Positions 9,700-64,000 of a stretch of DNA of 64,000 nucleotides are shown here, in pieces (the stretch's first letter is position 1; each line of letters opens with the position of its first letter). The DNA lies in NCBI GenBank assembly GCA_017792345.1, contig CP051228.1, forward strand, positions 3,316,148 to 3,380,147. Reading direction: 5' to 3'. This DNA comes from Mesoflavibacter sp. (GTDB taxonomy: Bacteria > Pseudomonadota > Alphaproteobacteria > UBA8366 > Aestuariispiraceae). Below the pieces are notes generated by a model. It was not told the origin of the DNA. It did not search any database and saw only the letters and a program-made list of their open reading frames with translations. Made by a program: the position numbers and the translations under genes.

Positions 9700-10021
9700 C
9701 CTGGCTGCCGCCCCAAAGCCGTGTTCCTGCGAAAGCAGGAACCTTCATCGTTCCAGAAAGGTGCCTGAAGAAGGAAGGCTCCTGCTTCCGCAGGAGCACG
9801 GTAGATGTTGATCGTCGTGTTATCGCATTCCTGCGAAAGCAGGAATCTTCCATGGTCCGGCACGGCGCTGGTGGGAAGGAAGGCTCCTGCTTTCGCAGGA
9901 GCACGGCAGAAGTTGATCGTCGCACTATCGCATTCCTGCGAAAGCAGGAATCTTCCATGGTCCGGCACGGTACCGGGGGAAGGAAGGCTCCTGCTTTCGC
10001 AGGAGCACGGTAGGCGAAAAT
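9700..10021. other. 322-bp gap made of family B hairpins
   Basis: There is no gene. After ~20 bases behind the isochorismatase-like gene, almost everything up to the tyrS stop codon is repeat sequence. The last hairpin ends only 8-10 bases from the tyrS stop, so it may also stabilise or end the tyrS transcript, although it lacks a U-tract. Confidence 0.7.
9723..10013. repeat. tandem family B hairpin repeats
   Basis: It begins with a GTTCCTGCGAAAGCAGGAAC hairpin. Units beginning CTCCTGCTT(T/C)CGCAGGAG then start at 9779, 9884 and 9988, giving spacings of 105 and 104 bases. Each full unit has two hairpins separated by GATCGTCG and TTCCATGGTCCGGCAC blocks. The last unit holds only the first hairpin. 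The copies are nearly identical, indicating recent amplification or gene conversion. Confidence 0.85.
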
Positions 10022-14448: not shown

Positions 14449-14907
14449 GTGAAACTGAGCACCAAGGGACGCTATGCGGTGATGGCCATCGTCGATCTTG
14501 CGTCCATGAAGGCGGACCGGCCTGTGCCATTGGCCGATATAGCCGAACGGCAGGACATCTCCCTGTCCTATCTGGAACAATTGTTCTCGAAAATGAAACG
14601 TGGCGGTGTCGTCCGCAGTGTCCGGGGGCCGGGCGGTGGCTATATCCTGGCCAAATCCCGAGACGCGATCAGCGTGACCGACATCCTGCGTTCCGTCGAC
14701 GATGAAACCCGAATGGGGCGCTGCGTTCCGTCGTCCCCTAACCTCTGCCGCCCCGGCGATACCCGCTGCGCAACGCATGAGCTATGGGCGATGCTGTCGG
14801 CGAAGATCGAGGCGGTTCTGGACCAGGTCAGTATCGCCGATGTCTGTGAAGGGCGGTACGCGTTGGACAACGAGCGCCCCATAGCGCAGGCGGTCGGCGA
14901 AGATTGA
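14449..14907 (+). CDS. iscR: Rrf2-family Fe-S regulator IscR
   Basis: A 152-residue transcription regulator that senses Fe-S cluster status. The N-terminus KLSTKGRYAVMAIVDLAS and the helix-turn-helix/wing (DISLSYLEQLFSKMKRGGVVRSVRGPGGGY) are IscR-like. Putative [2Fe-2S] ligands are C92, C100, C107 and H110 (CATHELW), matching the three-Cys-plus-His set of E. coli IscR with slightly wider spacing. The GTG start at 14449 has GGCGGAGGA upstream. It heads iscR-desulfurase-desulfurase-fdx. I did not find an IscR type 1 palindrome in its own promoter. Confidence 0.92.
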   Translation: MKLSTKGRYAVMAIVDLASMKADRPVPLADIAERQDISLSYLEQLFSKMKRGGVVRSVRGPGGGYILAKSRDAISVTDILRSVDDETRMGRCVPSSPNLCRPGDTRCATHELWAMLSAKIEAVLDQVSIADVCEGRYALDNERPIAQAVGED

Positions 14908-14953
14908 GCGGATAGAACCTTTTCCCGCCGCCCCTGCCGTGAGACAAAGCGGC

Positions 14954-16066
14954 ATGCCGCAGACGCCCGTCTATCTGGATTACAACGCGACCTGTCCGAT
15001 CCTGCCGGAATCGGAACAGGCGGTGCTGTCCGCGCTGGCGGCCGGCGGTAATCCGTCCTCCGTCCATGCCTTCGGCCGCGCTGCCAGGGGCGCGGTGGAA
15101 GCCGCACGCGGGCGGGTGGCGGCGCTGGTGGCGGGGGATCCGGCTCAGGTCGTGTTCACGTCGGGGGCCAGCGAAGCGAATATGCTGGCCTTGCGCGCCC
15201 TGCCGACAGGCCGGGTTCTGGTCTCAGACATCGAACATGACAGCGTCCTGAATGCCCAGACAGGCGCCATTCGGCTGCCGGTCGATCCAACGGGACGGCT
15301 GGACCTGACTTTCCTGCGCGAGACCGTGGCGGAAGGGGATTTCGTGTCGGTCATGGCGGTGAACAATGAAACCGGCGTCGTCCAACCGATCGCCGAAATC
15401 GCCGACATCATCCGCGGCGCGGGGGGCCGGTTGCATGTCGACGCTGTTCAGGCGGCAGGCCGCCTGTCCTTGGATATCGCGGAACTGGGCGCGACGGCCA
15501 TCAGCGTCAGCGCCCATAAGCTCGGCGGTCCGCCGGGGGTCGGGGCATTGATCCTGGGACGCGGCGTCGCCCTGCGTGCGATCATGCCGGGCGGTGGCCA
15601 GGAGCGGGGCCGGCGCGGTGGGACGGAAAACACCCCGGGCATCGCCGGGTTTGGCGCTGCGGCCGCACGCGCCCTGGAAAGCCGGGACGGCGAACAAGCG
15701 CGGCTGGCCGAACTGCGTCAAAAATTGGAAGACGGGCTCGCCGGCGCGGGGGCGACCGTTATCGCCGCCGGAACGCCCCGGGTCGCCAATACGGTGTGCG
15801 CCGCGCTTCCGGGCGTGCCGTCGGAAAAGCAGGTGATCGCCCTGGACCTTGCGGGATTCGCGGTCAGTGCCGGGTCCGCCTGCTCGTCCGGGAAGGTCAA
15901 GACCAGCCACGTCTTGAATGCGATGGGATTGCCGGACGACCTGTCCGGCGCGTCGATCCGTGTCAGCATGGGGTGGCGTACCACGGCGCAGGAAATCGAT
16001 GCCTTTATCGGCGCCTATGCCGCGATGGCCGGGCGGTTCGGTGCCATGGCCAAGATCGCCGGGTGA
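14954..16066 (+). CDS. cysteine desulfurase, NifS/IscS-like (first copy)
   Basis: A 370-residue PLP enzyme releasing sulfane sulfur from cysteine. It starts VYLDYNATCPILPE. The PLP lysine is K189 in SVSAHKLGGPPG, and the catalytic loop Cys is C310 in SAGSACSSGKVKTSHVL. Group I features (GTENTPGIAGF, RGGTEN) are clear. The ATG at 14954 is preferred over an in-frame GTG at 14939. It sits between iscR and a second desulfurase only 13 bases downstream; the two are about the same size but clearly diverged, so this is an old duplication. Confidence 0.92.
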   Translation: MPQTPVYLDYNATCPILPESEQAVLSALAAGGNPSSVHAFGRAARGAVEAARGRVAALVAGDPAQVVFTSGASEANMLALRALPTGRVLVSDIEHDSVLNAQTGAIRLPVDPTGRLDLTFLRETVAEGDFVSVMAVNNETGVVQPIAEIADIIRGAGGRLHVDAVQAAGRLSLDIAELGATAISVSAHKLGGPPGVGALILGRGVALRAIMPGGGQERGRRGGTENTPGIAGFGAAAARALESRDGEQARLAELRQKLEDGLAGAGATVIAAGTPRVANTVCAALPGVPSEKQVIALDLAGFAVSAGSACSSGKVKTSHVLNAMGLPDDLSGASIRVSMGWRTTAQEIDAFIGAYAAMAGRFGAMAKIAG

Positions 16067-50130: not shown

Positions 50131-50697
50131 ATGTTGCAAGGCTTGGCCAATCTGCCGAACGGCCTGTCCATTCGCCCGGCCAGGCCGGGGGACAAAGCGT
50201 TCCTGGAAAAGCTGCATCGCGATCAGCGCGAAGACCTGAAAATGGTCGACGCCGACCGCGCCTATATCGAAGAACTGCTGGATATGCAGCTTCGGGCGCA
50301 GACCCTGGGCTATGGCGGAGCATTTCCGGAAGCCCTGTACTTCGTGATCGAGAAGACCGGTGATGCCGTCGGCAAGCTGACGCTCGATTGGGGCGGAACA
50401 GAGGCCCGCGTCGTCGATTTGGCCTTCGTAAAGAAGGCGCGGGGGAAAGGCTTCGGGCAATCGGTCCTGATGGCGCTCATCGCGGCCTGCGGTTCGTCGA
50501 AATGCCCCTTGGCGGTTTCCGTCGCGCTGAACAATCCGGCACTTTATCAGTGGTTGTTGGCGCAAGGATTTGCGGTGACCCAGGCGCCGGAAGGCGGATC
50601 GCATCACATGCTGGTCTGGTATCCGGGCCGCGACGCCATGGCCGGACAGCCGGGCGCGCTGGCGCAGGCGTCCTCTTCCGGGGAAGGATCTGTTTAG
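50131..50697 (+). CDS. GNAT-family acetyltransferase
   Basis: A 188-residue N-acetyltransferase. The N-terminal strand-helix is SIRPARPGDKAFLEKLHRDQ. The acetyl-CoA loop lies in LAFVKKARGKGFGQSVLMAL (R-G-x-G-x-G-like), and VSVALNNPALYQWLLAQGFA is the usual last motif. The substrate is unknown. It lies right beside the DUF6916/tail-collar genes and points towards them, so it may belong to that locus. Confidence 0.85.
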   Translation: MLQGLANLPNGLSIRPARPGDKAFLEKLHRDQREDLKMVDADRAYIEELLDMQLRAQTLGYGGAFPEALYFVIEKTGDAVGKLTLDWGGTEARVVDLAFVKKARGKGFGQSVLMALIAACGSSKCPLAVSVALNNPALYQWLLAQGFAVTQAPEGGSHHMLVWYPGRDAMAGQPGALAQASSSGEGSV

Positions 50698-50704
50698 GCG
50701 CTGC

Positions 50705-51040
50705 TCAGGCGAATATCACGGACCAACGCTGACCGTCACCCCATTCTGGTTCGGGAATGCCGCTGTTGGGGGTGATCATGACACCCTTCAAAAGCCCGAA
50801 ATTCTCGTTTTCCAAACTCACGCAGATGGAATCGCCCGTCGGCGGCACGTGATCGGTCATGAAGATCGCCGCGAAGGCAGAGCGATCGCGCAATCCCGGG
50901 ATTGGCCCGCTTGAAATCCGGACCTGGACCAGGCGTGCCTCGACCTCACCGTCGTCATTAAAGACCCGGAATGTCTCGCCAACATGCGGTTCGAAAGTCT
51001 GTGCCTGGACCGCACCCATATCCAATTCGTTATCCGCCAT
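50705..51040 (-). CDS. DUF6916-like protein (copy 1)
   Basis: A 111-residue small beta-rich protein: MADNELDMGAVQAQTFEPHV, then FRVFNDDGEVEARLVQVRIS and IPGLRDRSAFAAIFMTDHVP. It shares with the copy at 52.5 kb the scheme (A-x-V/T-FxPHxGxxF, a middle LV strand, RxxFxxxF, then a final strand). Such proteins are small companions of tail-collar genes. Function unknown. It is last in the minus-strand run of four genes. Confidence 0.72.
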   Translation of the reverse strand: MADNELDMGAVQAQTFEPHVGETFRVFNDDGEVEARLVQVRISSGPIPGLRDRSAFAAIFMTDHVPPTGDSICVSLENENFGLLKGVMITPNSGIPEPEWGDGQRWSVIFA

Positions 51041-51158
51041 CGTTCCAATCCGTTCCAACTCAATCTGATGTTCTTGCTATCATGAATAAGGAACGGCGCG
51101 GAACCCTCTTGTCCCGCGCCGTTCGCCCAAATCCGGTACGCCCGCGCCGAAAACGGCG

Positions 51159-51782
51159 TCAGTTTCTGGACGGGTAGATGCCTTCTTCGCAAATGCAGTA
51201 GTTGACGGCCTGCAACGGGTTCAGCAGTTCGAAGGCCTGGCTGCTGCCGGTCGTATCGACGGTGACCGTACCTGTGACGCCGCCGCCAGTGACAGTGACC
51301 CCACCCAGTTCAACGGTCGTGCCGGGCGTCGTGCCGTCGACATACATGTCGGGGAAGGTCCCCAGCGGTGGCTGGCTGCCAATGTAGTCGCCCGCAGCCG
51401 GCGCGCGTTTGGACGCGGCGCTGGTCGACGCCGACACACTTGCCACCGGCGACGTTCCGCCGGTGGGCGTAAAGGTGGCAGTGTGATTGTGCGTCGGCAT
51501 CTGGGACAAGGTCAATGTGTGGACCTGGGCGCCGGCTTTCGCGCCGAGCGCGAAAGGCGTTAGCCCGGGTGGCGAACCCATCTGGTTCGAGCCGATCGGC
51601 ACCCGCGCGCGCAGGTCCGGATAGCCGAAGGTCGCCCGACCGTCGCCGCCGTAGAAGTTGGAGATTAGTGAGAAGAGGGCGGTGTTCTGCGAGATAGCGA
51701 TGACCTGACCGCTGCAGAAAGCCCATTTGTAGGGTGCGAAGGTGAATCCGAAGCTTGCGATCATGCCGTAGAAGGCGTCCAT
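51159..51782 (-). CDS. phage tail-collar domain protein, MdpB-like (copy A)
   Basis: A 207-residue protein with an N-terminal collar domain (GFTFAPYKWAFCSGQVIAIS then GGDGRATFGYPDLRARVPIG, GDGR..F..PDLR being diagnostic), the MPTHNHTATF His cluster, a variable Ser/Ala/Thr linker, and a conserved end CICEEGIYPSRN. No phage head, portal, tape or baseplate genes accompany it. Relatives are called microcystin-dependent-like proteins; their role is unsettled. It has the same length as its neighbour, copy B. Confidence 0.85.
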   Translation of the reverse strand: MDAFYGMIASFGFTFAPYKWAFCSGQVIAISQNTALFSLISNFYGGDGRATFGYPDLRARVPIGSNQMGSPPGLTPFALGAKAGAQVHTLTLSQMPTHNHTATFTPTGGTSPVASVSASTSAASKRAPAAGDYIGSQPPLGTFPDMYVDGTTPGTTVELGGVTVTGGGVTGTVTVDTTGSSQAFELLNPLQAVNYCICEEGIYPSRN

Positions 51783-51843
51783 TTTACTGCTCCCCTATAG
51801 AATTGCTGCGCCACTGCCCGCCATGGGCCGGCCGCTACCTCGA

Positions 51844-52467
51844 TTAGTTTCTGGACGGGTAAATGCCGTCCTCGCAGATGCAGAAGTTTACGGCCTGGAA
51901 CGGGTTCAATATCGAGAAGGTTGCACCCGAACCGGTGTCCCCGGTCGCCACATACCCACCCCCCAGGCCGCCCGAAAAATCCACACCGCCCAAGGGAACA
52001 AGAGTTCCCGGCGAGGCGCTGTCGACATACATATCCGGGAACGTCCCCAGCGGCGGTTGGCTGCCCAGATAGTCGCCGGGGTCGGGATTTCGCAAACTGG
52101 CCGAACTGGCCGAGGCCTCGAACTCAAATGTCGGGTCGAAGGTCCCAGTTTGAGTGAAGGTCGCCGTGTGAGCGTGCGTTGGTAGTTCAGCAGCAGCTAT
52201 CGCCTTGGTTTGCTCACCGTATGCGAGACCCAGCGAGATCGGCAAAAGACCGGGCGGCGTCCCCATATCGGCGGATCCGACCGCCATGCGCGCGCGCAGG
52301 TCCGGATAGCCGAAATACACTCTGCCATCGCCGCCAAAATTGGTGCCGAGTAGAGAGAACAGGGCCGTATTCTGATTGACCGGGACCAACTGAGCGCTGC
52401 AGAAGGCCCAGTCCCGGGGCGGGAAGGTGAAGCCGAAAGCGGCGATCATGCCTAAAAACGCATCCAT
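51844..52467 (-). CDS. phage tail-collar domain protein, MdpB-like (copy B)
   Basis: Also 207 residues. It matches copy A at GFTFPPRDWAFCSAQLVPV, GGDGRVYFGYPDLRARMAVG, LPTHAHTATFTQTG, GDYLGSQPPLGTFPDMYVD and CICEDGIYPSRN. The two differ mainly in the middle Ser/Ala-rich segment and in the penultimate strand region. Identical length, with divergence concentrated in one central part, suggests duplication followed by selection for different binding surfaces. It lies 61 bases upstream of copy A. Confidence 0.85.
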   Translation of the reverse strand: MDAFLGMIAAFGFTFPPRDWAFCSAQLVPVNQNTALFSLLGTNFGGDGRVYFGYPDLRARMAVGSADMGTPPGLLPISLGLAYGEQTKAIAAAELPTHAHTATFTQTGTFDPTFEFEASASSASLRNPDPGDYLGSQPPLGTFPDMYVDSASPGTLVPLGGVDFSGGLGGGYVATGDTGSGATFSILNPFQAVNFCICEDGIYPSRN

Positions 52468-52523
52468 ATTTTATTCCCCCGGATATAGCGTCACAGTGAT
52501 TTCAGTCAGGCGGCCGGGCCGCG

Positions 52524-52901
52524 TCACGAGAAGGTCGCGGTCAAAAGGACGACCTTGCCGTCTTTCTCCGCGTCCCGGCTGAGCGCGATGGCGGGAATTT
52601 CTCCCAGATCGGCGTGGTGCAACTGATAAACGCCGTCGTAGAACGGAAAATTCTCAGGGCCGGAGAACAGGACGCTGAAACGCTTGCGGGTCAGCATCTT
52701 GTCGCTGTCCGGACTTTCCGGGCATTGGATTTCGCCCCGGTCCTCGCAGTCGACCAATTCGAGTTCGACCGTCACCCCGTCGGATTTGATCCCCTCCTCG
52801 CTGGTACCCGCGAAGAGAGTGGTTTTGAACTTGCTGCCGATATGGGGCTTGAAGGTGTCGACCGTGGCCTTGGCCAGATCCAATTGTTTCACTGTCGCCA
52901 T
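52524..52901 (-). CDS. DUF6916-like protein (copy 2)
   Basis: A 125-residue small beta-rich protein: LAKATVDTFKPHIGSKFKTT, VTVELELVDCEDRG, then RKRFSVLFSGPENFPFYDGV and a final strand ending VVLLTATFS. It is the first gene of the minus-strand run and so is transcribed first from the promoter in the AT-rich gap. Relation to the 50.7-kb copy is clear in layout but distant in sequence. Confidence 0.75.
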   Translation of the reverse strand: MATVKQLDLAKATVDTFKPHIGSKFKTTLFAGTSEEGIKSDGVTVELELVDCEDRGEIQCPESPDSDKMLTRKRFSVLFSGPENFPFYDGVYQLHHADLGEIPAIALSRDAEKDGKVVLLTATFS

Positions 52902-53403
52902 GTGACTCCCCGAATGCCTTGGTTCCCCTGGACCGGCAGTGACGAAAAGAAGCGTGGCCGAACCCTCGGTCGGTGCGGCGGAACCGTTGCTATGGTTCCA
53001 GATTACCGAGCGAGCTCCGGGATTCGCCTCTTTCGGACAGCCGTTTCAGTCCGGTGTCGAAAGTTTTTATCCCATAACGAGCATAGCAGCGTTTTCAGCC
53101 AAACGACTATGAATTTTTGTTACGATATGTCTGCACCTTTAAAGTGTTGTTTTCTTTCAATCGTTTACGAAGATTTAACGGTGCCGAGACTATGTAAGGC
53201 TTACTGAAACAAGGATTCTACACGTCGATCGGTGGGAAGTGTGAGATATTTATCTAAAATACGTTGTATATTGGGGTGAACCTCCTTACGATCCTAGGCG
53301 GAAGAGTTGCCCTGCGTTAGTGTGGCTATCAATATCGGCGCCCGGTTGTGCGGTGCTTTGCCCGTAATTGCCGTGACGGTGGCGGAAACTTAGAGGTGCG
53401 GTT
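52902..53403. promoter_or_regulatory. 502-bp AT-rich divergent control region
   Basis: No gene is seen. Base composition drops sharply compared with the flanks, especially at 53060-53290 (AT-rich runs such as GAATTTTTGTTACGA, TTTAAAGTGTTG, ATTTATCTAAAATACG). It separates the tail-collar operon from the giant DUF4347 gene and must hold both promoters. An AGAGG ribosome-binding site stands before the GTG at 53404. No regulator gene is adjacent. Confidence 0.65.
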
Positions 53404-56400
53404 GTGCAATTCCTTCGGCAGATTTTGATGAACTCGACCGCCCGCCTGCCGGACGTGCATCGTCCCGCATTCAAGGCGCCGATGGCGCTGGAGCCGCGCT
53501 TCATGTTCGACGCCGCGGGCGCGGCGACGGGGGCCGATGCGGCGCAGGATGCCGCGGCGGAGGCCGAGGCGGTCGCCGAAAATTCCCCAAATGCGGGAGC
53601 GGGTGCCAATGCCGACGCGGTCGCGGATGCGATCAGCGGTCATGTCCCGGCGGAAAACCGTAAGGAAGTTGTGATCGTCGACCCCAGCGTCGCGTCCTAT
53701 CAGGACCTGCTGGCCGGAATGGATCCCAATATTGAGGTCATCATTCTTTCGGAAGGCGCGACGGTTGAGGATATCGCCACGGCGCTTGAAGGCCGTAACG
53801 GCATCGATGCCGTACACCTGATCAGCCATGGTGGTGTCGGCTCGCTCAATCTCGGTGGCGAGATTCTGTCGCTCGACACCCTGGATGCCAATGCCGATGC
53901 GCTGCGTACGATCGGGAACGCGCTGTCGGCGGACGGCGACATTCTGCTGTATGGCTGCAATGTAGGCGCGGATGGCGCCGGCGGTGATTTTCTGAGCGCC
54001 TTCGCAGTTGCGACCGGCGCGGATGTCGCCGCTTCGTCGGACGAAACCGGTGCTGCTGCGCTGGGTGGCGACTGGGTACTGGAAGAAAGCGTCGGGTCGA
54101 TTGAAACCGGCGTCGCGATATCCGGCGCGGCCCAGGAAAATTACGCACACACCCTTGCCGTTTTCGACTGGACCTCGAACACCGCAGATGGCGGTGCGTC
54201 CGTGACCCAGACCGTTTCCGGCGTGACGATCACGATCGCGGGCGGCAACATGGATGTTACGAATGGCGGCGGGTTGGCCGGATCGTCCGGCAGTGTCGCG
54301 TTCGAAAACAGCGGCTACCAGGGCTCGTTCACGATTTCCTTCAGCTCCGCCGTCAATTTGACGACAATGCGGGTCGGGCGCGTATCCGGGCACAATTCCT
54401 TGGATATTCTCTATACGGTGACGGACGGTTCCGGGAACGGTCAGGTCACTCAATCCGCCGCGAACTACGCGTCTGGCTCCGACGTCACGTTGAACTGGAC
54501 AAGCGTCACCAGCTTTACCGTCGCGGCCAATGGCAGTCTGAGCGGGACCAGTTTCTCCGCGCTGTTCGACAATATCAATTTCACCGCCGCGAATGCCGCG
54601 CCGGCTCTCGGCGGGACACCCGCCGACGTGACGGTGACGGAGGACGTCGCGACGGCGATCGATCTGTCGGCCTACAATGTGTCGGATGGCGATGGCGACA
54701 CGATCACCCTCACTCTGGCGGTGGATGCCGGCACCATCGCGTCGATCGACGGGAACGGCACGACGTCCGGCGTGACCGTTGCGAATTCCGGCACCGGGTC
54801 GATGACGCTGCAGGGCACGGCCGCCAATCTGAATACCTATCTGAACGATACGACCAAGATCCGCTACACGACCGCGCTGAACAGCACCGCTTCCGCGACC
54901 CTGACCGTTACGCCGAACGACGGGACCGTGAACGGAACCGCCGATACCGTGACGCTGAACGTGACGCCGGTGAACGACAATCCGACCGGGTCTCTCCCGG
55001 CCAGCGTGACCGTGACAGAGGACACGTTGAGCAATGTCGATCTGTCGGCCGCCAGCTTCGCGGATGTCGACAGCGCGTCGATCACGGTCACCCTAACGGC
55101 ATCCGCCGGAACCTTCGCGACCCCGGCGGATGGGGCCGGTGTCGGCGGCGGGGTCACCGAGACCCTAGTCAACGCGACGACGATCACGCTGGTGGGCTCG
55201 GCGGCCGATATCAACACCTATCTGGATACGGCATCGAACATCCGCTACACGCCGGCGTCCAATGTGAACGGCGCGGCGGCGGCGACGATTACCGTCACCG
55301 CCAATGACGGCAACGGGTCGGGTAACGTCGCGCTGGGCACGGTCAATGTGAACATCACGGCGGTGAACGACAATCCGACCGGGTCGCTTCCGGCCAGCGT
55401 GACCGTGACCGAGGACACGCTGAGCAATGTCGATCTGTCCGCCGCCAGTTTCGCGGATGTCGATAGCGCGTCGATCACCGTGACGCTGACCGCGTCGGCG
55501 GGAACCTTCGCGACCCCGGCGGACGGGGCCGGTGTCGGCGGCGGGGTCACCGAGACCCTGGTCAACGCGACGACGATCACGCTGGTGGGCTCGGCGGCCG
55601 ATATCAACACCTATCTGGATACGGCGTCGAACATCCGCTACACGCCCGCATCCAACGCAAACGGCGTGGCGGCGGCGACGATCACCGTTACCGCGAATGA
55701 CGGCGACGGGTCGGGTAACGTCGCACTGGGCACGGTCAATGTGAACATCACGGCGGTGAACGACAATCCGACCGGGTCGCTCCCGGCCAGCGTGACCGTG
55801 ACCGAGGACACGCTGAGCAATGTCGATCTGTCGGCCGCCAGTTTCGCGGATGTCGACGGCGACACGATCACGGTCACCCTAACGGCGTCCGCCGGAACCT
55901 TCGCGACCCCGGCGGATGGCGCGGGCGTAGGCGGCGGCGTCACGGAGACTCTGGTCAACGCGACGACGATCACGCTGGTCGGCTCAGCGGCGGACATCAA
56001 CACCTATCTCGATACGGCATCGAACATTCGGTACACGCCGGCGTCCAATGTGAACGGCGCGGCGGCGGCGACGATTACCGTCACCGCCAATGACGGCAAC
56101 GGGTCTGGTAACGTCGCGCTGGGTACGGTCAATGTGAACATCACGGCGGTGAACGACAATCCGACCGGGTCGCTTCCGGCCAGCGTGACCGTGACCGAGG
56201 ACACGCTGAGCAATGTCGATTTGTCGGCCGCCAGTTTCGCGGATGTCGACAGCGCGTCGATCACCGTGACGCTGACCGCGTCGGCGGGAACCTTCGCGAC
56301 CCCGGCGGACGGGGCCGGTGTCGGCGGCGGGGTCACGGAGACCTTAGTCAACGCGACGACGATCACGCTGGTGGGCTCGGCGGCGGACATCAACACCTAT

Positions 56401-59400
56401 CTGGATACGGTATCGAACATCCGCTACACGCCGGCGTCCAATGTGAACGGCGTGGCGGCGGCGACGATCACCGTTACCGCGAATGACGGCGACGGGTCGG
56501 GCAATGTCGCGCTGGGCACGGTCAATGTGAACATCACGGCGGTGAACGACAATCCGACCGGGTCCGTCCCGGCCAGCGTGACCGTGACCGAAGACACGCT
56601 GAGCAATGTCGATCTGTCGGCCGCAAGCTTCGCCGATGTCGACGGCGACACGGTCACGGTAACCCTGACCGCCTCGGCCGGAACCTTCGCAACCCCTGCA
56701 GACGGCGCGGGCGTTGGCGGCGGGGTCACCGAGACCCTGGTCAACGCGACGACGATCACGCTGGTCGGCGCGGCGGCGGACATCAACACCTATCTCGACA
56801 CGGCTTCCAACATTCGCTACACGCCGGCGTCCAATGTCAGCGGCAACAGTGCGGCGACGATCACCGTCACCGTCAATGATGGACAAGGCAGCGGGAATGT
56901 TGCGGCCGGAACGGTTCAGGTGAATGTGACCGCCGTGAACGATGCGCCGGCCCTCGCCGGTCTCGACGGGACGCCCAGCTTTACCGAAGGCGGCGCCGCG
57001 GTCGTATTGGACAGCAATGTGACCGTCACGGATGTCGAACTGGGGGCCCTGAACGGCGGGAACGGCAATTTTGCCGGGGCCAGTCTGGTCATCGTGCGCA
57101 ATGGCGGCGCCAATGCGACCGACACCTATTCGATCGTGACCGGGGGCAACCTCACCGTCGCGGGCAGCAATGTTTCGTCCGGCGGTAACGTGATCGCCAG
57201 TTTCGATACGTCTTCGGCCGGCCAGGTGACCATCACCTTCCAGAACAACGGCACGATCCCGACGACCGCGCTGGTCAACGAGGTGATGCAGGCGATCCGC
57301 TACACCAACACATCGAACGATCCGCCCGCCACGGCGCAATTGAATTGGACCTTCTCGGACGGCAACAGCGCCAATGCCCAGGGGACCGGCGACAATCCCG
57401 GCACGGCCACCGGGTCCACAACCGTGTCGATCACCAATGTGAACGACGCGCCGACCCTGACCGCGACCGGGCAGAACCCGACTTATGTCGAAGGCGCCGG
57501 TGGGGCAGATCTATTCAGTGGCGTGACGGCCGGCACGGTAGAGGCGGCCGATCGCATTTCGTCGATGACTTTGACCGTCACCAACCTATCCGACGGGGCG
57601 AGCGAAATTCTCGGCTTCGATGGATCGGATGTCGCCCTGACCAACGGGACAAACGTCACGACGGCGACCAATGGTCTCAGCGTTTCGGTTTCCGTCACCG
57701 GCAGCACCGCGACCGTCAGTTTTTCCGGCGCGACACTGTCCGTCGCGCAATTCCAAACTCTGGTCGACGGCATGACCTACCGCAACACGTCGGACAATCC
57801 GACGACGGCGGGGAACCGGGTGATCACCATCACCGGAATTACGGATAATGGCGGCACGGCCAATGGCGGCAGTAACGCGGCGGCGCCGAACCTGACAAGT
57901 ACCGTGTCCCTGACCGCGGTGAACGACGCGCCGGTCATCGGCAATCTGAACGGCGACAGTACCAGTCTGCAGGTGGGCAATGCCTCCACTATCGACAATG
58001 GCGGCAATGTGACTGTCACCAACGCGGATTCCGCCGACTACAACGGCGGGTCGCTGATTATTTCCGACAATGGCGGCAACAATACCGCCAACGGCAATTT
58101 CTCGGTCGACGGGACCAATGTGACGTCCGGCGGCGACGGCACGATTTCGGCGGGTGAGACGATTTCGGTTGGCGGCGTCAATATCGGCACAGTAAACGCG
58201 ACAAATGACGGTCAAGCCGGGCGGTCGCTGGAAATCAGTTTCAACTCCAATGCCACCAATGCGCGGGTGCAGACTCTGCTGCAGAACATCCGCTGGGGCG
58301 CGGCCGCCGGCACCGGGGCACAGACCTTCACCGCGACATTGAACGATGCCGACGGCACCGCGAATGGCGGTGCGCAGTCGACGACAGCAAACTTCACCAT
58401 GACCATCGGCAACCTGCCGGTGATCAGCAATCTCAGTGGCGACAGTGTGACCTTTACCGAGAACGGCGGCGCCGTCGTGCTCGACAGCGGCGGCAACGCG
58501 ACGGTCACCGATGCGGACAATCCGGCCAATTATGGGGGCGGCAATCTGATAGTCACCGTCTCGGCCAACGCCGTGGCGGCGGAAGACATCCTGACCTTCA
58601 GCACGGCGGGAACCGTCGCGCTGGCCGGAACGACGGCGGGATCGAACGTCTCCGTCGGCGGTACGGTGATCGGTACGCTGGCGAACAATATCGCGGCCGG
58701 GAACAACCTGGTCGTCAATTTCAACACCAATGCGACCCTGGCCCGGGTGCAGACGCTGGTCCAGGCCATCGCCTACAATAATGCCAGCGAGGCGCCGACC
58801 ACCACGACCCGCACCGTATCCGTCACGTTGACCGACAATGATTCCCTTTCCAGCGCGGCCAGCACCGTGTCGGTCGCGGTCTCGGCGGTCAACGACGCGC
58901 CGGTCTTCACCGGGCTGGATGGCACGCCCACGGTCAATGAACAGACGGCGACGGTCCTGGATTCCAACGCCACGATCGCGGATGCGGAATTGGACGCCCT
59001 GAACGGCGGCGCCGGTAACTATAACGGGGCGACCTTGACCCTGTCGCGCAATGGCGGTGCCAATGCACAAGACCGGTTTGCCAATACCGGTACGCTGGCT
59101 GCGCTGACCCAGGGCGGCAACCTGACGGTCGGGGCGACGACGATCGGGACGGTGACAACGAATTCGGCCGGTACGCTGCTCCTGACCTTCAATGCGAACG
59201 CGACCACCGCCCTGGTCAACAGCGCGATCCAGCAGATCACCTATACGAATACCAGCGACACGCCCCCGGCCAACGTTCAGATCAACTATGTCTTCAGCGA
59301 CGGCAATTCGGGCGCGCAAGGGTCCGGCGGTGCCGGGTCGGACAGCAACGATTCCGTCACGGTGACGATCACGCCGGTGAACGATGCGCCGACGGCATCC

Positions 59401-61437
59401 GGTATTCCGGCCTCGGTGACTGTCACGGAAGACGTATTGAGCAATATCGACTTGTCGGCTGTCAGTTTCGCGGATTTGGACGGCAACAATCTGACTGTCA
59501 CGCTGACCGCGTCGGCGGGGACATTTGCCACACCGGGCGACGGGGCCGCGGTCGGGGCCGGGGTCACCGAAACGCTGGTGAATGCGACGACGATCACGCT
59601 GGCCGGCAGCGCGGCGGACATCGCCACCTATTTGGACACCACGACGAATATTCGCTACACCACCACGGCAAACGCGGCGGGGAACGGCGTTGCGACGATC
59701 ACGATTGCCGCGAATGACGGTACGGTCAATCCGACGCTGGGCACGGTTCAGATCAACGCGACGGCGGTCAACGACGCACCGACGGCGACGGGCGTTCCCG
59801 CCGCCGTAACCGTCACCGAAGACACGATCAGCAATATCGACCTGTCGGCCATTACCTTTACGGAGGTCGACGGCGATACGCTGACGGTGACCCTGACGGC
59901 ATCGGCCGGAACCTTCGCCACGCCGGGCGACGGGGCCGCGGTCGGGGCCGGGGTCACCGAAACGCTGGTGAACGCGACGACGATCACGCTGGTCGGCAGC
60001 GCGGCCGATATCAGCACCTATCTCGATACCGCCACCAATATCCGTTACACGACGGCGGCGAATGCCGATGGCAACGCGGTGGCGACGATCACGATCACCG
60101 CCGGCGACGGCACGGTGACCCCGACCCTGGGAACGGTGAATATCAACTCCACCGGCGTGAATGACGCGCCTGGGCTGGTCGGCGTCGACAATTCGGTTGT
60201 GTTTGACCCATCGGGGGGCACGCCGGTCGTGCTCGATTCCAACATGACCGTGTCGGATCCGGAACTGACGGCGGCCAACAATTACAATGGCTTCTCGGTT
60301 CAGATCCAACGGTCCGGCGGGGCCGACGCGACCGATCTGTTCGCCGTGCGGTCCAGCGCGAATGTGACCATTGTCGGTGGCAATGCGCAGGTCGGCGGCA
60401 ATACCATCGCGACGCTGAACACCACGACGGCGGGACGTTTGGTCATCACCTTCACCAGCGGCAACGGGACCACGGCGACAACGGCGCTGATCAATGAAGT
60501 GCTGCAGAACGTTACCTATGCGACCAACGCCGCGACTCCGACATCGCCGGTCACGATTGAGCTTACCCCCAATGACGGCACGGTTGGCGGTACGGCCCAG
60601 ACACTTACGGCGACCTTGCGGCCGCCGGCGCCGGTCGACGATTTCGTCCCGCCGCCGACCAATTCGAACCCGCCGCCGGCCCCGCCGCCTCTCGCGACGG
60701 CCCCGCCGCTGCCCCCGCCGCCGCCGAGCACGCCGGTGCGCGATGGGTCGAGCAACGGATCCAATCCGGGCGGTCCGGCTCAGAACAACGGCGGCGCGGA
60801 AAGCGCCATCCGCGGAACCTTGGGGTCGCAGAGTGCGATTGAAAACACCGGCACGCCCGTCCGTGTTTCGGTCGTCGGTACCGGAAACGGTCTTGTCGCG
60901 AATGCCGGGGCCGGATTGGGCGGCGGAACCAATGGCGGTCTGGGCGGCGGAAATGCCGGTGGATTCGGTGGAGCAGGCGGCGGCCTGGGCGGTGGTCTGG
61001 GTGGCGGCGGCTTCGGTGGAGGCGGCCTTGGTGGTGGTGCCGGTGGCGGCCTGGGCGGTGGTCTCGGCGGAGGTATCGGTGGTGGTTTAGGCGGCGGCAC
61101 AGGGGGCGGCCTCGGCGGTGGCCTCGGTGGAGGGACCCCCGGATCGGGCTCCTCCGATGGGCTGGATGGCGGGCTTGGCGTGCCCGGCGCGGACCCGCAG
61201 GGCGGGACCGGATTGGGCGATCAGGCATCTGCATCCGGCGCCGGAAGGCCTATTGCGGATGACAGACTGTTGGTTGCGGCCACAGACAGGCAGGATGTCC
61301 AAGACGGCGAAAGCGTCTCGGAAGAGACAATGGCGGTGACGGACTTCTTTGGCGAGTTGTTGCTGGCTGCGGGTGAAGGTACGGTGCTGGACGATTTTGC
61401 AACAGCACTGGACGAATACCTGCCGCCGGCGGCATAA
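53404..61437 (+). CDS. giant DUF4347 repeat protein, putative surface or exported adhesin
   Basis: A 2,677-residue protein. Residues 29-38 read LEPRFMFDAA, an LEPR-type N-terminal motif known from large extracellular proteins. DUF4347 spans about 88-247, with H142 in LISHGGVG and C185 in LLYGCNVGADG; C185 is the only Cys I find in the chain. A beta domain follows (about 250-400), then cadherin/VCBS-like repeats to ~2390, including five near-identical 131-residue units (523-1177) and two 130-residue units (1992-2251). The end is Pro-rich (~2410-2445), Gly-rich (~2500-2585), then a short acidic tail. There is no RTX, LPXTG or PEP-CTERM. GTG start with AGAGG upstream. TolC-type and adaptor genes follow, so export by them is inferred. 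Confidence 0.9.
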   Translation: MQFLRQILMNSTARLPDVHRPAFKAPMALEPRFMFDAAGAATGADAAQDAAAEAEAVAENSPNAGAGANADAVADAISGHVPAENRKEVVIVDPSVASYQDLLAGMDPNIEVIILSEGATVEDIATALEGRNGIDAVHLISHGGVGSLNLGGEILSLDTLDANADALRTIGNALSADGDILLYGCNVGADGAGGDFLSAFAVATGADVAASSDETGAAALGGDWVLEESVGSIETGVAISGAAQENYAHTLAVFDWTSNTADGGASVTQTVSGVTITIAGGNMDVTNGGGLAGSSGSVAFENSGYQGSFTISFSSAVNLTTMRVGRVSGHNSLDILYTVTDGSGNGQVTQSAANYASGSDVTLNWTSVTSFTVAANGSLSGTSFSALFDNINFTAANAAPALGGTPADVTVTEDVATAIDLSAYNVSDGDGDTITLTLAVDAGTIASIDGNGTTSGVTVANSGTGSMTLQGTAANLNTYLNDTTKIRYTTALNSTASATLTVTPNDGTVNGTADTVTLNVTPVNDNPTGSLPASVTVTEDTLSNVDLSAASFADVDSASITVTLTASAGTFATPADGAGVGGGVTETLVNATTITLVGSAADINTYLDTASNIRYTPASNVNGAAAATITVTANDGNGSGNVALGTVNVNITAVNDNPTGSLPASVTVTEDTLSNVDLSAASFADVDSASITVTLTASAGTFATPADGAGVGGGVTETLVNATTITLVGSAADINTYLDTASNIRYTPASNANGVAAATITVTANDGDGSGNVALGTVNVNITAVNDNPTGSLPASVTVTEDTLSNVDLSAASFADVDGDTITVTLTASAGTFATPADGAGVGGGVTETLVNATTITLVGSAADINTYLDTASNIRYTPASNVNGAAAATITVTANDGNGSGNVALGTVNVNITAVNDNPTGSLPASVTVTEDTLSNVDLSAASFADVDSASITVTLTASAGTFATPADGAGVGGGVTETLVNATTITLVGSAADINTYLDTVSNIRYTPASNVNGVAAATITVTANDGDGSGNVALGTVNVNITAVNDNPTGSVPASVTVTEDTLSNVDLSAASFADVDGDTVTVTLTASAGTFATPADGAGVGGGVTETLVNATTITLVGAAADINTYLDTASNIRYTPASNVSGNSAATITVTVNDGQGSGNVAAGTVQVNVTAVNDAPALAGLDGTPSFTEGGAAVVLDSNVTVTDVELGALNGGNGNFAGASLVIVRNGGANATDTYSIVTGGNLTVAGSNVSSGGNVIASFDTSSAGQVTITFQNNGTIPTTALVNEVMQAIRYTNTSNDPPATAQLNWTFSDGNSANAQGTGDNPGTATGSTTVSITNVNDAPTLTATGQNPTYVEGAGGADLFSGVTAGTVEAADRISSMTLTVTNLSDGASEILGFDGSDVALTNGTNVTTATNGLSVSVSVTGSTATVSFSGATLSVAQFQTLVDGMTYRNTSDNPTTAGNRVITITGITDNGGTANGGSNAAAPNLTSTVSLTAVNDAPVIGNLNGDSTSLQVGNASTIDNGGNVTVTNADSADYNGGSLIISDNGGNNTANGNFSVDGTNVTSGGDGTISAGETISVGGVNIGTVNATNDGQAGRSLEISFNSNATNARVQTLLQNIRWGAAAGTGAQTFTATLNDADGTANGGAQSTTANFTMTIGNLPVISNLSGDSVTFTENGGAVVLDSGGNATVTDADNPANYGGGNLIVTVSANAVAAEDILTFSTAGTVALAGTTAGSNVSVGGTVIGTLANNIAAGNNLVVNFNTNATLARVQTLVQAIAYNNASEAPTTTTRTVSVTLTDNDSLSSAASTVSVAVSAVNDAPVFTGLDGTPTVNEQTATVLDSNATIADAELDALNGGAGNYNGATLTLSRNGGANAQDRFANTGTLAALTQGGNLTVGATTIGTVTTNSAGTLLLTFNANATTALVNSAIQQITYTNTSDTPPANVQINYVFSDGNSGAQGSGGAGSDSNDSVTVTITPVNDAPTASGIPASVTVTEDVLSNIDLSAVSFADLDGNNLTVTLTASAGTFATPGDGAAVGAGVTETLVNATTITLAGSAADIATYLDTTTNIRYTTTANAAGNGVATITIAANDGTVNPTLGTVQINATAVNDAPTATGVPAAVTVTEDTISNIDLSAITFTEVDGDTLTVTLTASAGTFATPGDGAAVGAGVTETLVNATTITLVGSAADISTYLDTATNIRYTTAANADGNAVATITITAGDGTVTPTLGTVNINSTGVNDAPGLVGVDNSVVFDPSGGTPVVLDSNMTVSDPELTAANNYNGFSVQIQRSGGADATDLFAVRSSANVTIVGGNAQVGGNTIATLNTTTAGRLVITFTSGNGTTATTALINEVLQNVTYATNAATPTSPVTIELTPNDGTVGGTAQTLTATLRPPAPVDDFVPPPTNSNPPPAPPPLATAPPLPPPPPSTPVRDGSSNGSNPGGPAQNNGGAESAIRGTLGSQSAIENTGTPVRVSVVGTGNGLVANAGAGLGGGTNGGLGGGNAGGFGGAGGGLGGGLGGGGFGGGGLGGGAGGGLGGGLGGGIGGGLGGGTGGGLGGGLGGGTPGSGSSDGLDGGLGVPGADPQGGTGLGDQASASGAGRPIADDRLLVAATDRQDVQDGESVSEETMAVTDFFGELLLAAGEGTVLDDFATALDEYLPPAA
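54971..56935 (+). repeat. five near-identical 393-bp tandem units
   Basis: Units begin at 54971, 55364, 55757, 56150 and 56543 with TGAACGACAATCCGACCGGG, exactly 393 bases apart. Each encodes SVTVTEDTLSNVDLSAASFA through TITVTANDG to NVNITAVNDNPTGS. Units 1, 2 and 4 carry DVDSASITV; units 3 and 5 carry DVDGDT(I/V)TV. Nearly identical DNA implies recent expansion or gene conversion. Confidence 0.92.
59378..60157 (+). repeat. two diverged 390-bp units of the same repeat
   Basis: Units start at 59378 and 59768 and are 390 bases long, one codon shorter than the main array. They encode the same scheme (SVTVTEDVLSNIDLSAVSFA, then TASAGTFATPGDGAAVGAGV). They are closer to each other than to the first array. 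Confidence 0.85.
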
Positions 61438-61550
61438 GTTTGGCCAAACCTTGGGAATCGTGCGCGTATACAAAATCGCGGTTTAGTTGAATTCAGTGAT
61501 GTCGTCCGGGCGGGATTGGTCCGACGGATGGGAGCGACAGGGGTGGATTT

Positions 61551-63074
61551 ATGAGTTTTGTTCCGAATGGATTTGTCGGTTCGGTAATGTTGGCATGCAG
61601 CCTGGCCGTCGCCGGCTGTTCCGTCGACTTGAAGCCGTTCACTCAGGAGGAGAACGCGGCCCGCGTCGAATCCGATCTGTCCGCTCTCTTCGCCGATCAG
61701 GAACGGATCTCCGGCCCGATCATGCTGGAAGAGGCGATCGCCCGTGCCCTGACCTACAACCTCGACCATCGCCTGAAACTGATGGAGCGCGCGGTCGGTG
61801 TCCGCGAGTTGGACGTGGCGCGCATGAATCTGCTGCCGTCGGTCGCGGCCAATGCCGGTTATGATGCACGCTCGCATGCGGACACGACCTTCAACGAGGC
61901 CCGGACGTCCACATCGACGACGTCGGACAAGCGCCTCAAGACGGCGGATCTGTCGATCTCCTGGAACGTCCTGGATTTCGGCATCGGCTATATTCGCGCC
62001 AAGCAGCAGGCCGATCTGGCCCTGATCGTCGAAGAACGCCGCCGTCAGGTCATTCACAATATCCTGCAGGACACGCGCGAGGCCTATTGGCGCGCCGCGG
62101 CGGCAGAACGGGCGCTGCGGTCCTTCGGTCCGTTGATGGAGCGGGTTCAGATGGCGCTGGACGATGTCGAGGCCCAGGTCGCCGCGCAGGTCAATTTGAT
62201 GCAAGCGCTGGTCTACAAGCGCACTTTGCTGGAGACCCTGCGCCAGTTGGAAGGGCTGCGCCACGACATGCAGGCGGCGCGCGCGGAACTGGCCGTCCTG
62301 ATGAATGTGCATCCGGATTCGGAATTCACGATTTCCGACGCCGAGGGGCCGCTGCCCAGCCACGTCCTGGCCTTCTCCTTCGATCCCGAGGAGTTGGAAC
62401 TGGCGGCGCTGACCAATCGGTCGGAGCTGCGGTCGGAAGCGTATCAGCTGCGCATCAATCGCGAAGAAGCGCGGGTCGCGATGCTGCAGATGATCCCGGG
62501 CCTGAATTTCAGCGCCGGTATCAACTATACGTCCGACAGTTATAAGGCCAATCAGCGTTGGTACGATGCCAGCATGGCCTTGGCCTGGAACGTGATGAGC
62601 CTGTTCCAAGGGCCGGCCAATATCGAACTGGCGGAAACCAAGCAGGAGATGTCCAAGGTCCGGCGGCTGGCGCTCAGCATGGCCGTGATCGCCCAGGTCA
62701 ACGTTGCCCAGTTGCGCTTTGTTTCGGCCAAGCGCGATTACGAACTGGCCAATGACATCGCCACCGTACAGGGCAGCATCCAGACCCAGGTCGCCAATTC
62801 GCAGCAGGCCGCGACCGGCAGCGGGCAGGAAGTCATTCAGGCCGATGTCTTGACCGCCTTGACCGACCTGCGCCGCAACTTGGCCTATGCCGAATTGCAG
62901 GCGGCCTATGGCCGGCTGATCGCGGCGTCAGGGGCGGATCCGCAGCTTGATGGCGTGTCGGAACAGGACGGTCTGATGGTGCTGGCCGGGGCAGTCGGAC
63001 GGGCGTTGCAGGAATGGGAAAACGGCGAGTTCAAGGCACCCGCCCGTTGGTCCGGAGAAGACGAGGCGTCCTGA
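61551..63074 (+). CDS. TolC-family outer-membrane lipoprotein
   Basis: A 507-residue outer-membrane channel subunit. The signal ends in lipobox LAVAGC, as in OprM/NodT-type members. The body has the paired helical hairpins of TolC, starting with IMLEEAIARALTYNLDHRLK and repeated later as ALTDLRRNLAYAELQAAYGR LI. LQDTREAYWRAAAAERALRS and VNVAQLRFVSAKRDYELAND mark the long helices. It lies 113 bases behind the giant gene, and its stop overlaps the adaptor start, forming one operon. Confidence 0.92.
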   Translation: MSFVPNGFVGSVMLACSLAVAGCSVDLKPFTQEENAARVESDLSALFADQERISGPIMLEEAIARALTYNLDHRLKLMERAVGVRELDVARMNLLPSVAANAGYDARSHADTTFNEARTSTSTTSDKRLKTADLSISWNVLDFGIGYIRAKQQADLALIVEERRRQVIHNILQDTREAYWRAAAAERALRSFGPLMERVQMALDDVEAQVAAQVNLMQALVYKRTLLETLRQLEGLRHDMQAARAELAVLMNVHPDSEFTISDAEGPLPSHVLAFSFDPEELELAALTNRSELRSEAYQLRINREEARVAMLQMIPGLNFSAGINYTSDSYKANQRWYDASMALAWNVMSLFQGPANIELAETKQEMSKVRRLALSMAVIAQVNVAQLRFVSAKRDYELANDIATVQGSIQTQVANSQQAATGSGQEVIQADVLTALTDLRRNLAYAELQAAYGRLIAASGADPQLDGVSEQDGLMVLAGAVGRALQEWENGEFKAPARWSGEDEAS

Positions 63075-63835
63075 TGGCGCGCCTCGCCGCCTGTCTCGTC
63101 GCGCTGTCGGTCCTGTCCGCCGGCATGGATGCGGCGGCGCAATCTAACGATTCCAATACAGACGTGGTGGACGGTCCCCTGGTCCGGGCGCTGGTCGTGT
63201 CACGGGACCGGGCTGTTCTATCGGCCGAAATCGCGGCGCGGATCGCAGAGATGCCGTCGCGTCCAGGTGATCGTTTCGCCAAGGGCGACCGGCTGGTGCG
63301 TTTCGATTGCAGCCGCTTCGTCGCCCAGCGCGACGTCGGGGCCGCCGATGTCGATGCGGCGCAGAAAAGCCTGCAATCGGTCGAGAAACTGCGCAGCCTG
63401 AACGCGGCCGGCCAATTGGAGGTCGAAATTGCGGCCGCGCAAGTGGCTAAGACGGAGGCGCAGCAGCGCCTGTTCCAATCGGATGTCAATCGCTGCACGA
63501 TCAGCGCGCCTTTTGACGGGCGGGTGGTGGCCTGGCATGCCAATCCGCATGAAGTCGCCAATCCGGGCGACGACCTCGTGGAAATCGTGGCGGCGGGCAA
63601 TCTTGAAATCGAAATGATCGTGCCGTCGTCCTGGCTGTCGTGGCTGGCGCCGGAACTGTCGTTCGCAGTCGCCGTCGACGAGACCGGCAATCGCTATGAG
63701 GCCAAGGTGACCAAGCTGGGTGCGGAGGTGGACCCTGTCAGCCAGACCGTGGCGATCCGCGCAGGATTCGACAGTGCTCCCCGGGATCTGCTGCCGGGGA
63801 TGAGCGGAACCGCGATCTTTCCGCAAGGCCAGTGA
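63074..63835 (+). CDS. HlyD/RND-type periplasmic adaptor, short form
   Basis: A 253-residue membrane-fusion protein with a signal peptide (to about DAAAQ). The lipoyl halves are EIAARIAEMPSRPGDRFAKG and RCTISAPFDGRVVAWHANPH, joined by a single helical hairpin (AAQVAKTEAQQRLF). The beta-barrel follows, ending in LLPGMSGTAIFPQG. It is shorter than standard adaptors, lacking much of the membrane-proximal region. It couples to the TolC gene by an overlapping start; no RND pump or ABC exporter gene is in the window. Confidence 0.9.
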   Translation: MARLAACLVALSVLSAGMDAAAQSNDSNTDVVDGPLVRALVVSRDRAVLSAEIAARIAEMPSRPGDRFAKGDRLVRFDCSRFVAQRDVGAADVDAAQKSLQSVEKLRSLNAAGQLEVEIAAAQVAKTEAQQRLFQSDVNRCTISAPFDGRVVAWHANPHEVANPGDDLVEIVAAGNLEIEMIVPSSWLSWLAPELSFAVAVDETGNRYEAKVTKLGAEVDPVSQTVAIRAGFDSAPRDLLPGMSGTAIFPQGQ

Positions 63836-63906
63836 TCGCGCCAGGACGCGGGCTTCCGTCCGAGCGGAGGGTTACAAGCATCGACCAAAAGGGTAAATAG
63901 GGCGGC

Positions 63907-64000
63907 ATGAGCGTCTCATCCGGCACTGAAGGCAAACAGGCGGCGGGCAGCAATGCAGCGCGGACAACCGCCCTCTTGCTGCAACTGGAGAAGGAGGCGC
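63907..64000 (+). CDS. start of a further gene, cut by the window end
   Basis: The reading frame opens at an ATG (MSVSSGTEGKQAAGSN) and continues with ALLLQLEKEA to the last base. Only 31 residues are visible, so no family can be given. Position, 71 bases after the adaptor, suggests the same operon, perhaps a second, larger adaptor or the inner-membrane part of the exporter. Confidence 0.55.
   Translation, partial: MSVSSGTEGKQAAGSNAARTTALLLQLEKEA

Follow-up and report, generated by a model that had tools for sequence, protein, structure and literature searches.

The locus at the end of the window (the whole 64,000-nucleotide stretch analysed here) raises the question of how a giant protein might leave the cell when its gene lies beside genes for a TolC-type protein and HlyD-type adaptors but not beside an ABC ATPase gene. 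Few bacterial gene products exceed giant surface proteins in size, and we know of no exporter assigned to this group of them. An earlier note on this DNA had proposed a chromosomal export system, with collar proteins as partners of the giant. We consider it reasonably probable that the locus encodes a TolC-type exporter dedicated to the giant, in which a RiPP-style protease-adaptor would replace the ABC transporter.

Gene content and conservation of the locus

The genes named in the earlier note, namely GNAT, DUF6916 and collar genes, the giant after a divergent gap, a TolC lipoprotein and a HlyD adaptor, all lie where it had placed them. Its truncated next gene starts at 63907 and encodes a HlyD adaptor whose N-terminal part is GAF-like. 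When the contig was extended past 64 kb, this gene and the following one, an M50-HlyD fusion, proved to be part of the set. The features are as follows.

50131-50697, plus strand: GNAT acetyltransferase, accessory cassette (Pfam scan)
50705-51058, minus strand: DUF6916 protein, accessory cassette (PF21880, 38 bits, cut-off 27)
51159-51782, minus strand: collar-domain protein, accessory cassette (PF07484, 3.4e-22)
51844-52467, minus strand: collar-domain protein, accessory cassette (PF07484, 1.2e-20)
52524-52901, minus strand: DUF6916 protein, accessory cassette (PF21880, 46.2 bits, cut-off 27)
53404-61437, plus strand: giant DUF4347 protein, 2,677-residue frame (DUF4347, E 1.6e-51), proposed exported substrate
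53482-53511 (approximate), plus strand: N-terminal motif LEPRFMFDAA (LEPR-XLL-like), proposed recognition signal
53668-54156, plus strand: DUF4347 domain (Pfam), with His142 and Cys185
61551-63074, plus strand: TolC/OEP outer-membrane protein with lipobox (PF02321, 2.2e-28, 99.8 bits)
63014-63835, plus strand: short periplasmic HlyD/RND-type adaptor (PF13437, 5.7e-20)
63907-64000 in the window, plus strand: GAF-HlyD adaptor, 457 residues, cut by the window end (whole gene L003:1055-2428)
L003:2432-4576, past the window end: M50-HlyD fusion, 714 residues, beginning 3 bases after the GAF-HlyD stop codon

The description of the collar and DUF6916 genes as mirrored holds for gene order, but the mirroring is limited to order because all four genes share one strand, which rules out a duplication or inversion as its meaning. 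The divergent gap has a GC content of 0.570 (53-54 kb block), against 0.60-0.665 for the blocks on either side (50-53 and 54-61 kb). The upstream flank consists of IleRS, DUF3035 and two M16 peptidase genes, and the fusion is followed on its 3' side by the housekeeping genes GcvT, alcohol dehydrogenase, response regulator and KARI. In the nearest relatives, G105 and G211, the flanking M16 and GcvT genes sit on separate contigs.

Relatives of the fusion were confirmed in 556 stretches, and the best 80 of these were used for the locus counts. They come from Alpha-, Beta- and Gammaproteobacteria, Nitrospira and two Desulfo- bins, and the set occurs in culturable environmental Pseudomonas and Azospirillum. 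Among these best 80 of 556, the GAF-HlyD gene lies beside the fusion in 77, the short HlyD gene in 68 and the TolC gene in 52 (the 28 without it being partly at contig ends), and DUF4347 is in range in 32. The note had held that unconserved neighbours, or unrelated housekeeping genes next in line, would mark the locus as a chance assembly; the set is kept far outside the lineage, and the next two genes are members of it, with housekeeping genes following. The conserved set also bears out the view that the TolC and HlyD genes belong with the giant at a chromosomal locus.

The proposed linkage of collar proteins to DUF4347 is real, since 8 of 39 DUF4347 places have a collar no more than 5 kb away, where about 0.08 would be expected; the same GNAT-collar-DUF6916 genes recur in Pseudomonas, where the GNAT relative in locus L113 matches at 37.8% over 156 residues (E 2e-40). 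At the exporter loci, collars were found in 14 of the best 80 of 556, all from Pseudomonas or Stutzerimonas. The cassette adjoins DUF4347 genes in two genomes without the exporter and is also found elsewhere, beside asparagine-synthase genes. A single-sequence search for DUF6916 returned nothing in the 80 loci, and DUF6916 was detected by Pfam in the loci subsequently checked manually. The cassette is thus an optional partner of the locus. The Pfam name of the collar domain refers to phage tail fibres, which would fit the remains of a phage or tailocin next to a secretion locus with which they have no connection. However, a scan of the genes between 43 and 64 kb and of the next ten revealed no phage structural family, and the collar, DUF6916 and GNAT combination recurs by DUF4347 in other genera, so that we regard a remnant as highly improbable.

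The giant protein and its N-terminal motif

The giant more likely starts at ATG 53428 than at the frame start, 53404. Its motif LEPRFMFDAA is followed by the DUF4347 domain, cadherin-like/tandem-95 repeats, a Gly-rich region and a short C-terminal segment, and the gene contains 4.9 copies of a 393-bp unit. Judging from its sequence, the giant is without a Sec-like hydrophobic N-terminus, the maximum 11-residue hydropathy being 0.88 compared with 2.24 and 2.79 in the signal regions of the TolC and HlyD proteins of the same locus. The N-terminal motif resembles the LEPR-XLL domain (NF012209), which is merely a named N-terminal domain, and no link of this domain to an exporter was found in the two open-licence papers that use the term. 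The window motif scores 14.7 bits with NF012209, under the cut-off of 17, and the model matches 39 of 43 N-termini with E no higher than 1 and 2.9e-6 as the best value.

The pattern LExRxxFD[AG] is present in 32/32 DUF4347 frames neighbouring the fusion in the best 80 of 556 loci, compared with 4 of 10,064 other frames; these four exceptions are large and lie directly upstream of TolC in such loci. A further count gave 36/45, the pattern having been loosened slightly between successive counts. A giant with this motif (LEPR giant) is encoded on the same contig as the fusion in 51 of these 80 loci. In the other 29, 27 contigs end less than 10 kb from the fusion gene; L074, also one of the 29, has a DUF4347 frame truncated at the start of the contig, and L072, with a fusion but no LEPR giant, is a genuine exception. 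Three Pectobacterium genomes have two fusion copies, each paired with a separate LEPR giant; a DUF4347 match is seen in one of the two giants but not in the other. Among 289 genomes of the window's class, DUF4347 occurs in 23 and the fusion in 13, and both occur together in 10, where about one is expected. Within this class the motif was found at 11 of 12 DUF4347 loci of fusion-bearing genomes, compared with 0/12 strong and 0/6 weak DUF4347 loci of genomes without the fusion. The co-occurrence of giant and fusion, the conservation of the set in 80 relatives and the proximity of collars to DUF4347 lead us to reject a chance assembly.

A short C-terminal motif is probably common to the giants. 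With a profile from 32 hand-chosen C-termini, 25 of 32 left-out members rank in the top 1% of 2,280 decoys, the best decoys outscore members, and the window's giant scores weakly (6.8 bits). C-termini were dropped before the count when the frame ended out of frame, showed no visible motif or repeated another (L051, L067, L071, L073, L097, L104, L121, L126, L193 and one L060 frame).

The DUF4347 domain is a putative clan CD (caspase-like) cysteine protease, as suggested by its fold and its His-Gly and Cys positions. His142 and Cys185, numbered from the GTG start, match these positions in the window's giant, and 25 of 29 DUF4347 sequences have both residues, the His being absent in four. In structure comparisons, the domain matches legumain and caspases with TM 0.3-0.4, and the closest solved structure is 9qpe_G (E 7e-5, TM 0.55). 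One paper places Tce1 (PA0256), a putative type VI cysteine protease effector, in the same Pfam family (PMC8262886), and another proposes a His/Cys dyad (PMC13323088). Unlike Tce1, the DUF4347 domain here is an N-terminal domain of a giant protein, and no type VI genes were seen in the locus.

The M50-HlyD fusion and the ABC question

The fusion combines a domain that may be PqqD-like with an M50 intramembrane protease (PF02163, 28.5 bits, cut-off 27.2) and a HlyD part. It has the HExxH and second zinc/aspartate motifs of peptidase family M50, and H210, E211 and H214 (HExGH) and F311-D312-G313 (FDG) are invariant in 51/51 fusions. The PqqD-like identity of the N-terminal domain is a weak assignment from sequence profiles and a structure model: PF05402 matches 3 of 51 N-termini with E no higher than 1 (0.058 at best), NF050069 matches 1 of 51, and the modelled domain has three strands followed by three helices (pLDDT about 90); none of the 50 listed fold matches is a PqqD structure. 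The C-terminal half aligns in structure and sequence with the MacA/EmrA/MexA adaptors, which pair with ABC, MFS or RND pumps, whereas the membrane part here is a protease and not a pump. No paper on peptidase M50 together with HlyD was found in the open-licence literature.

Residues 41-406 of the fusion, including the HExxH region, match the daptide metalloprotease model NF041824 (168.9 bits, cut-off 300), as do the protease halves of all 51 fusions. Together with the short HlyD protein, which at 94.8 bits lies just under the 94.9-bit cut-off of the RND-adaptor model TIGR01730, and with GAF domains that suggest sensing or regulation, this resemblance would suit an efflux or peptide-export pump in which the M50 part acts as a RiPP-type protease on a small peptide and the giant stands next to it by chance or under loose selection. 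Unlike the daptide/RiPP proteases, the fusion is joined to HlyD, and its neighbour is a giant protein rather than a known small precursor. Since giant and fusion co-occur, the motif is associated with the fusion and duplicated fusions are accompanied by separate giants, we find such a pump quite improbable.

Type I systems, such as HlyB-HlyD-TolC and the LapBCE system for giant adhesins such as LapA, recognise an uncleaved signal at the C-terminus of the substrate, which in many cases also has RTX repeats. The present locus resembles them in combining HlyD adaptors and a TolC-type protein with a giant repeat protein. The TolC/OEP protein, with a lipobox LAVAGC at its N-terminus, reaches only 25.1 bits with TIGR01844 (cut-off 225), and TIGR01843 stays far under its cut-off. 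The set has three different HlyD-domain proteins, one of which is fused to the M50 protease. As the earlier note stated, no ABC ATPase is present among the window genes scanned with Pfam, nor among the scanned locus genes past the window end. An energising part was expected there, or one of a new kind; the fusion does lie past the end, but an M50 protease-HlyD fusion is, to our knowledge, not a known energiser. PsmE of Pseudomonas F113, whose cluster has been called type I and described with RTX and epimerase domains (PMC7716237), was not adopted as the same system.

The genome has one type I ABC exporter above the family cut-off (TIGR03375, 979.5 bits, C1:3096331), an LssB-type protein about 270 kb away, and sub-threshold relatives of it, so that a partner of this kind might act in trans. 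This distant exporter could energise an ordinary type I system to which the local HlyD and TolC proteins are extra adaptors. ABC exporters classically pair with TolC and HlyD, and the candidate C-terminal motif of the giants would fit the C-terminal signals of type I substrates. However, ABC-like frames were found by a crude motif rule in only 16 of the best 80 of 556 loci, and the M50-HlyD fusion is the conserved neighbour. Moreover, the window's giant has no RTX repeats, 24 of 33 LEPR giants also lack them, and it is an N-terminal motif that tracks the fusion. We therefore think an ABC exporter in trans rather unlikely.

Proposed export route

In the dedicated exporter that we favour, the PqqD-like domain of the fusion would recognise the LExRxxFD[AG] motif of the giant, as PqqD-like domains recognise precursor peptides in RiPP systems. 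The metalloprotease and HlyD arm of the fusion, GAF-HlyD, short HlyD and the TolC lipoprotein would together make up a conduit that spans the envelope, and the substrate may be trimmed or released at the M50 site. Once exported, the giant may be processed by its putative DUF4347 protease. It would end up on the cell surface or outside the cell, with the collar proteins as optional partners.

The gene set is possibly an as yet undescribed secretion system. More tentatively, and with some doubt, we suggest a separate secretion class in which giants exit via TolC through a protease-adaptor fusion reading LExRxxFD[AG]; such a class would have no dedicated ATPase and could draw energy from membrane potential, folding outside the cell or proteolytic release. 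If so, the motif, a directly testable substrate signal, would predict substrates in many Proteobacteria and Nitrospira, and a conserved set with a RiPP-type protease in its adaptor and without an ATPase of its own would change the view of how TolC-linked export can be driven.

Gene content of the locus beyond the window

All genes named in the earlier note were found at their positions, and since the host genome is a single contig of 4.9 Mb, the sequence beyond the window end could be read. Extension past 64 kb added two genes to the locus:

From window 63907, running past the window end: HlyD adaptor (GAF-HlyD), 457 aa
Past the window end: M50-HlyD fusion, 714 aa, with a peptidase M50 match in the middle and an HlyD match in the C-terminal half

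The GAF-HlyD and M50-HlyD genes are spaced by 3 bases, and the reading frames of TolC and the short HlyD overlap, as in an operon. The fusion is followed by GcvT, alcohol dehydrogenase, a response regulator and KARI, and GNAT is preceded by IleRS, DUF3035 and two M16 peptidases. The scan of locus genes turned up no ABC ATPase. The gene of the DUF4347 giant contains near-identical 393-bp repeats (54956-56879; 4.9 copies, 89% matches), whose copy number is probably unstable. A 105-bp unit (2.8 copies) lies at window 9724-10013, away from the exporter locus.

Conservation of the proposed exporter set and linkage of fusion and giant

The exporter set is conserved. Scanning public genomes with an M50-HlyD alignment gave at least 556 confirmed stretches, of which the best 80 were retained with up to 10 kb of flank per side. 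Record titles assign these 80 loci, many of them in metagenome bins, to Nitrospira and its relatives, to the Alpha-, Beta- and Gammaproteobacteria, and to two Desulfo- bins. Using models derived from the proteins of the window together with their matches, we called GAF-HlyD at 77, short HlyD at 68 and TolC at 52 of the best 80; a DUF4347 frame was in range at 32, and another frame of more than 1,300 aa at 26. The typical order is TolC, short HlyD, GAF-HlyD and M50-HlyD, and the giant either precedes TolC or comes after the fusion. The Pfam GAF domain was detected in 3 of 24 GAF-HlyD members.

Giant and fusion co-occur. Among 289 genomes of the window's class, 23 carry DUF4347 and 13 the fusion, and both occur in 10 compared with approximately 1 expected from the totals. 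Of the 48 genomes in which the retained locus showed no DUF4347, 36 carry it somewhere, in many cases adjoining the fusion. Three Pectobacterium genomes have two fusions each, every one with its own giant, one giant of the pair with DUF4347 and the other without a DUF4347 match. A giant with the motif LExRxxFD[AG] is on the fusion's own contig in 51 of the best 80 loci, including L108, whose giant carries an ME variant. Of the remaining 29 fusions, 27 have a contig end no more than 10 kb away; at locus L074 a DUF4347 frame is cut by the contig start, and locus L072 is a genuine exception. Genome G028 has a second DUF4347 frame (C1:963645, locus L010), broken by TAG and without an adjoining M50-HlyD match.

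The feature that the giants share is the N-terminal motif LExRxxFD[AG]. It occurs in every one of the 32 DUF4347 frames found at the 80 loci versus 4 of 10,064 other frames, and these four are large and directly precede TolC in three exporter loci. In the class sample, beyond the 80 loci, a locus was available for 30 of the 39 DUF4347 places. Of the DUF4347 loci in fusion-bearing genomes, 11 of 12 had the motif, the twelfth being a second DUF4347 within a motif-bearing frame; genomes lacking the fusion showed it at none of 12 strong loci and none of 6 weak ones. In extended stretches, 36 of 45 DUF4347 frames carry it; among the other nine, a spurious domain edge hides it in one, ME replaces LE in one, an LFSAD variant takes its place in two, the contig boundary truncates one and four lack it. 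Giants without a DUF4347 match also bear the motif in Pectobacterium, Serratia, Corticibacter, Pseudomonas and Micavibrio. The NCBIfam LEPR-XLL domain matches 39 of 43 motif N-termini at E ≤1, and the window giant scores 14.7 bits, below the cut-off of 17. The region around its motif is not hydrophobic (hydropathy 0.88 versus 2.24 for its own TolC and 2.79 for its own HlyD); the median over 80 motif frames is 1.57, and a few of them reach values as high as 2.35. At G328:C84:321362-326737 and at locus L181, a diverged M50-HlyD (27% identity) adjoins a DUF4347 protein with the variant IEPRLLFSAD, and motif and fusion may vary together.

The collar cassette

The linkage of collar genes to this system, proposed in the earlier note, is real as an association, and the cassette proves optional at exporter loci and also stands alone. 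In the class sample, 8 of 39 DUF4347 places have collars no more than 5 kb away, versus approximately 0.08 under random placement; the eight are spread over 8 of 23 genomes and six genera. DUF6916 is near 6 of the 39. The fusion is present in six of these eight genomes and absent from two. At loci L131 (G096) and L132 (G135), collars adjoin motif-less DUF4347 genes in genomes without an M50-HlyD match: the association of collars may extend to DUF4347 proteins at large.

Among the best 80 of at least 556 exporter loci, collars occur at 14, exclusively in Pseudomonas or Stutzerimonas. A Pfam check of the intervening genes there assigned all 7 candidates to DUF6916, two of them with scores under the cut-off, and found GNAT plus sulfotransferase in Pseudomonas locus L113, whose GNAT is 37.8% identical to that of the window. 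The L113 sulfotransferase gene (14791-15612) separates the collar cassette from the DUF4347 giant; comparable frames were noted by eye in L116, L118, L121 and L099.

Stand-alone cassettes in seven loci
L135-L141 (genomes G012, G043, G040, G095, G271, G051, G033): three collar genes and GNAT each, often DUF6916

In all five of these cassettes that were tested, the 630-aa neighbour is an asparagine synthase. L137 and L140 hold sulfotransferase and HPr-kinase-like genes, and L140 also a transglutaminase-like gene. Together this is a lasso-peptide-like set beside tail-collar genes.

Predicted folds and a candidate export route

All 51 aligned fusions keep the HExxH residues and FDG unchanged, and the daptide metalloprotease model matches the protease half of each (window fusion, 168.9 bits; cut-off 300). 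The C-terminus RESGF is common, being exact in 42 of the best 80 of at least 556. The structure model of the fusion (pLDDT 89.6) has at least six membrane helices, a MacA/MexA-like arm and an N-terminal domain of three strands and three helices. We take this strand/helix order to be that of PqqD; together with weak profile matches (PF05402 in 3 of 51 fusions, best E 0.058; NF050069 matches one of 51), the model weakly suggests a PqqD-like domain.

The DUF4347 model (pLDDT 89.7) matches the DUF4347 protein in 9qpe, legumain and caspases. PA0256 is named a DUF4347 protein in PMC8262886, and PMC13323088 describes it, under the name Tce1, as a putative cysteine protease whose His/Cys dyad is TcdB-like. 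The window giant has both residues, as do 25 of 29 aligned DUF4347 sequences. RTX repeats number zero in the window giant and one to five in 9 of 33 LEPR giants above 900 aa. A C-terminal motif may be common to the giants, as 25 of 32 left-out C-termini score as high as the best 1% of decoys.

The most probable reading is that the giant is exported by the four envelope proteins. The motif of the giant would be read by the N-terminal domain of the fusion, whose protease would trim or release the chain, and the HlyD arms with TolC would form the channel; DUF4347 may process the giant afterwards. Gene linkage, the motif and the folds are what the analysis shows, and from these it infers export, motif recognition, cleavage and the energy source. 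It is possible that an ABC partner encoded in trans serves this export: the window genome has one ABC exporter above the type I cut-off, approximately 270 kb away, and no PrtD-type exporter above cut-off. In the open-licence literature searched, four papers mention DUF4347 and two mention LEPR-XLL, and we found no paper joining M50 and HlyD. As a TolC/HlyD locus, the system is a variant of a known arrangement. If export by the four envelope proteins needs no ATPase, they would represent a new class of exporter.
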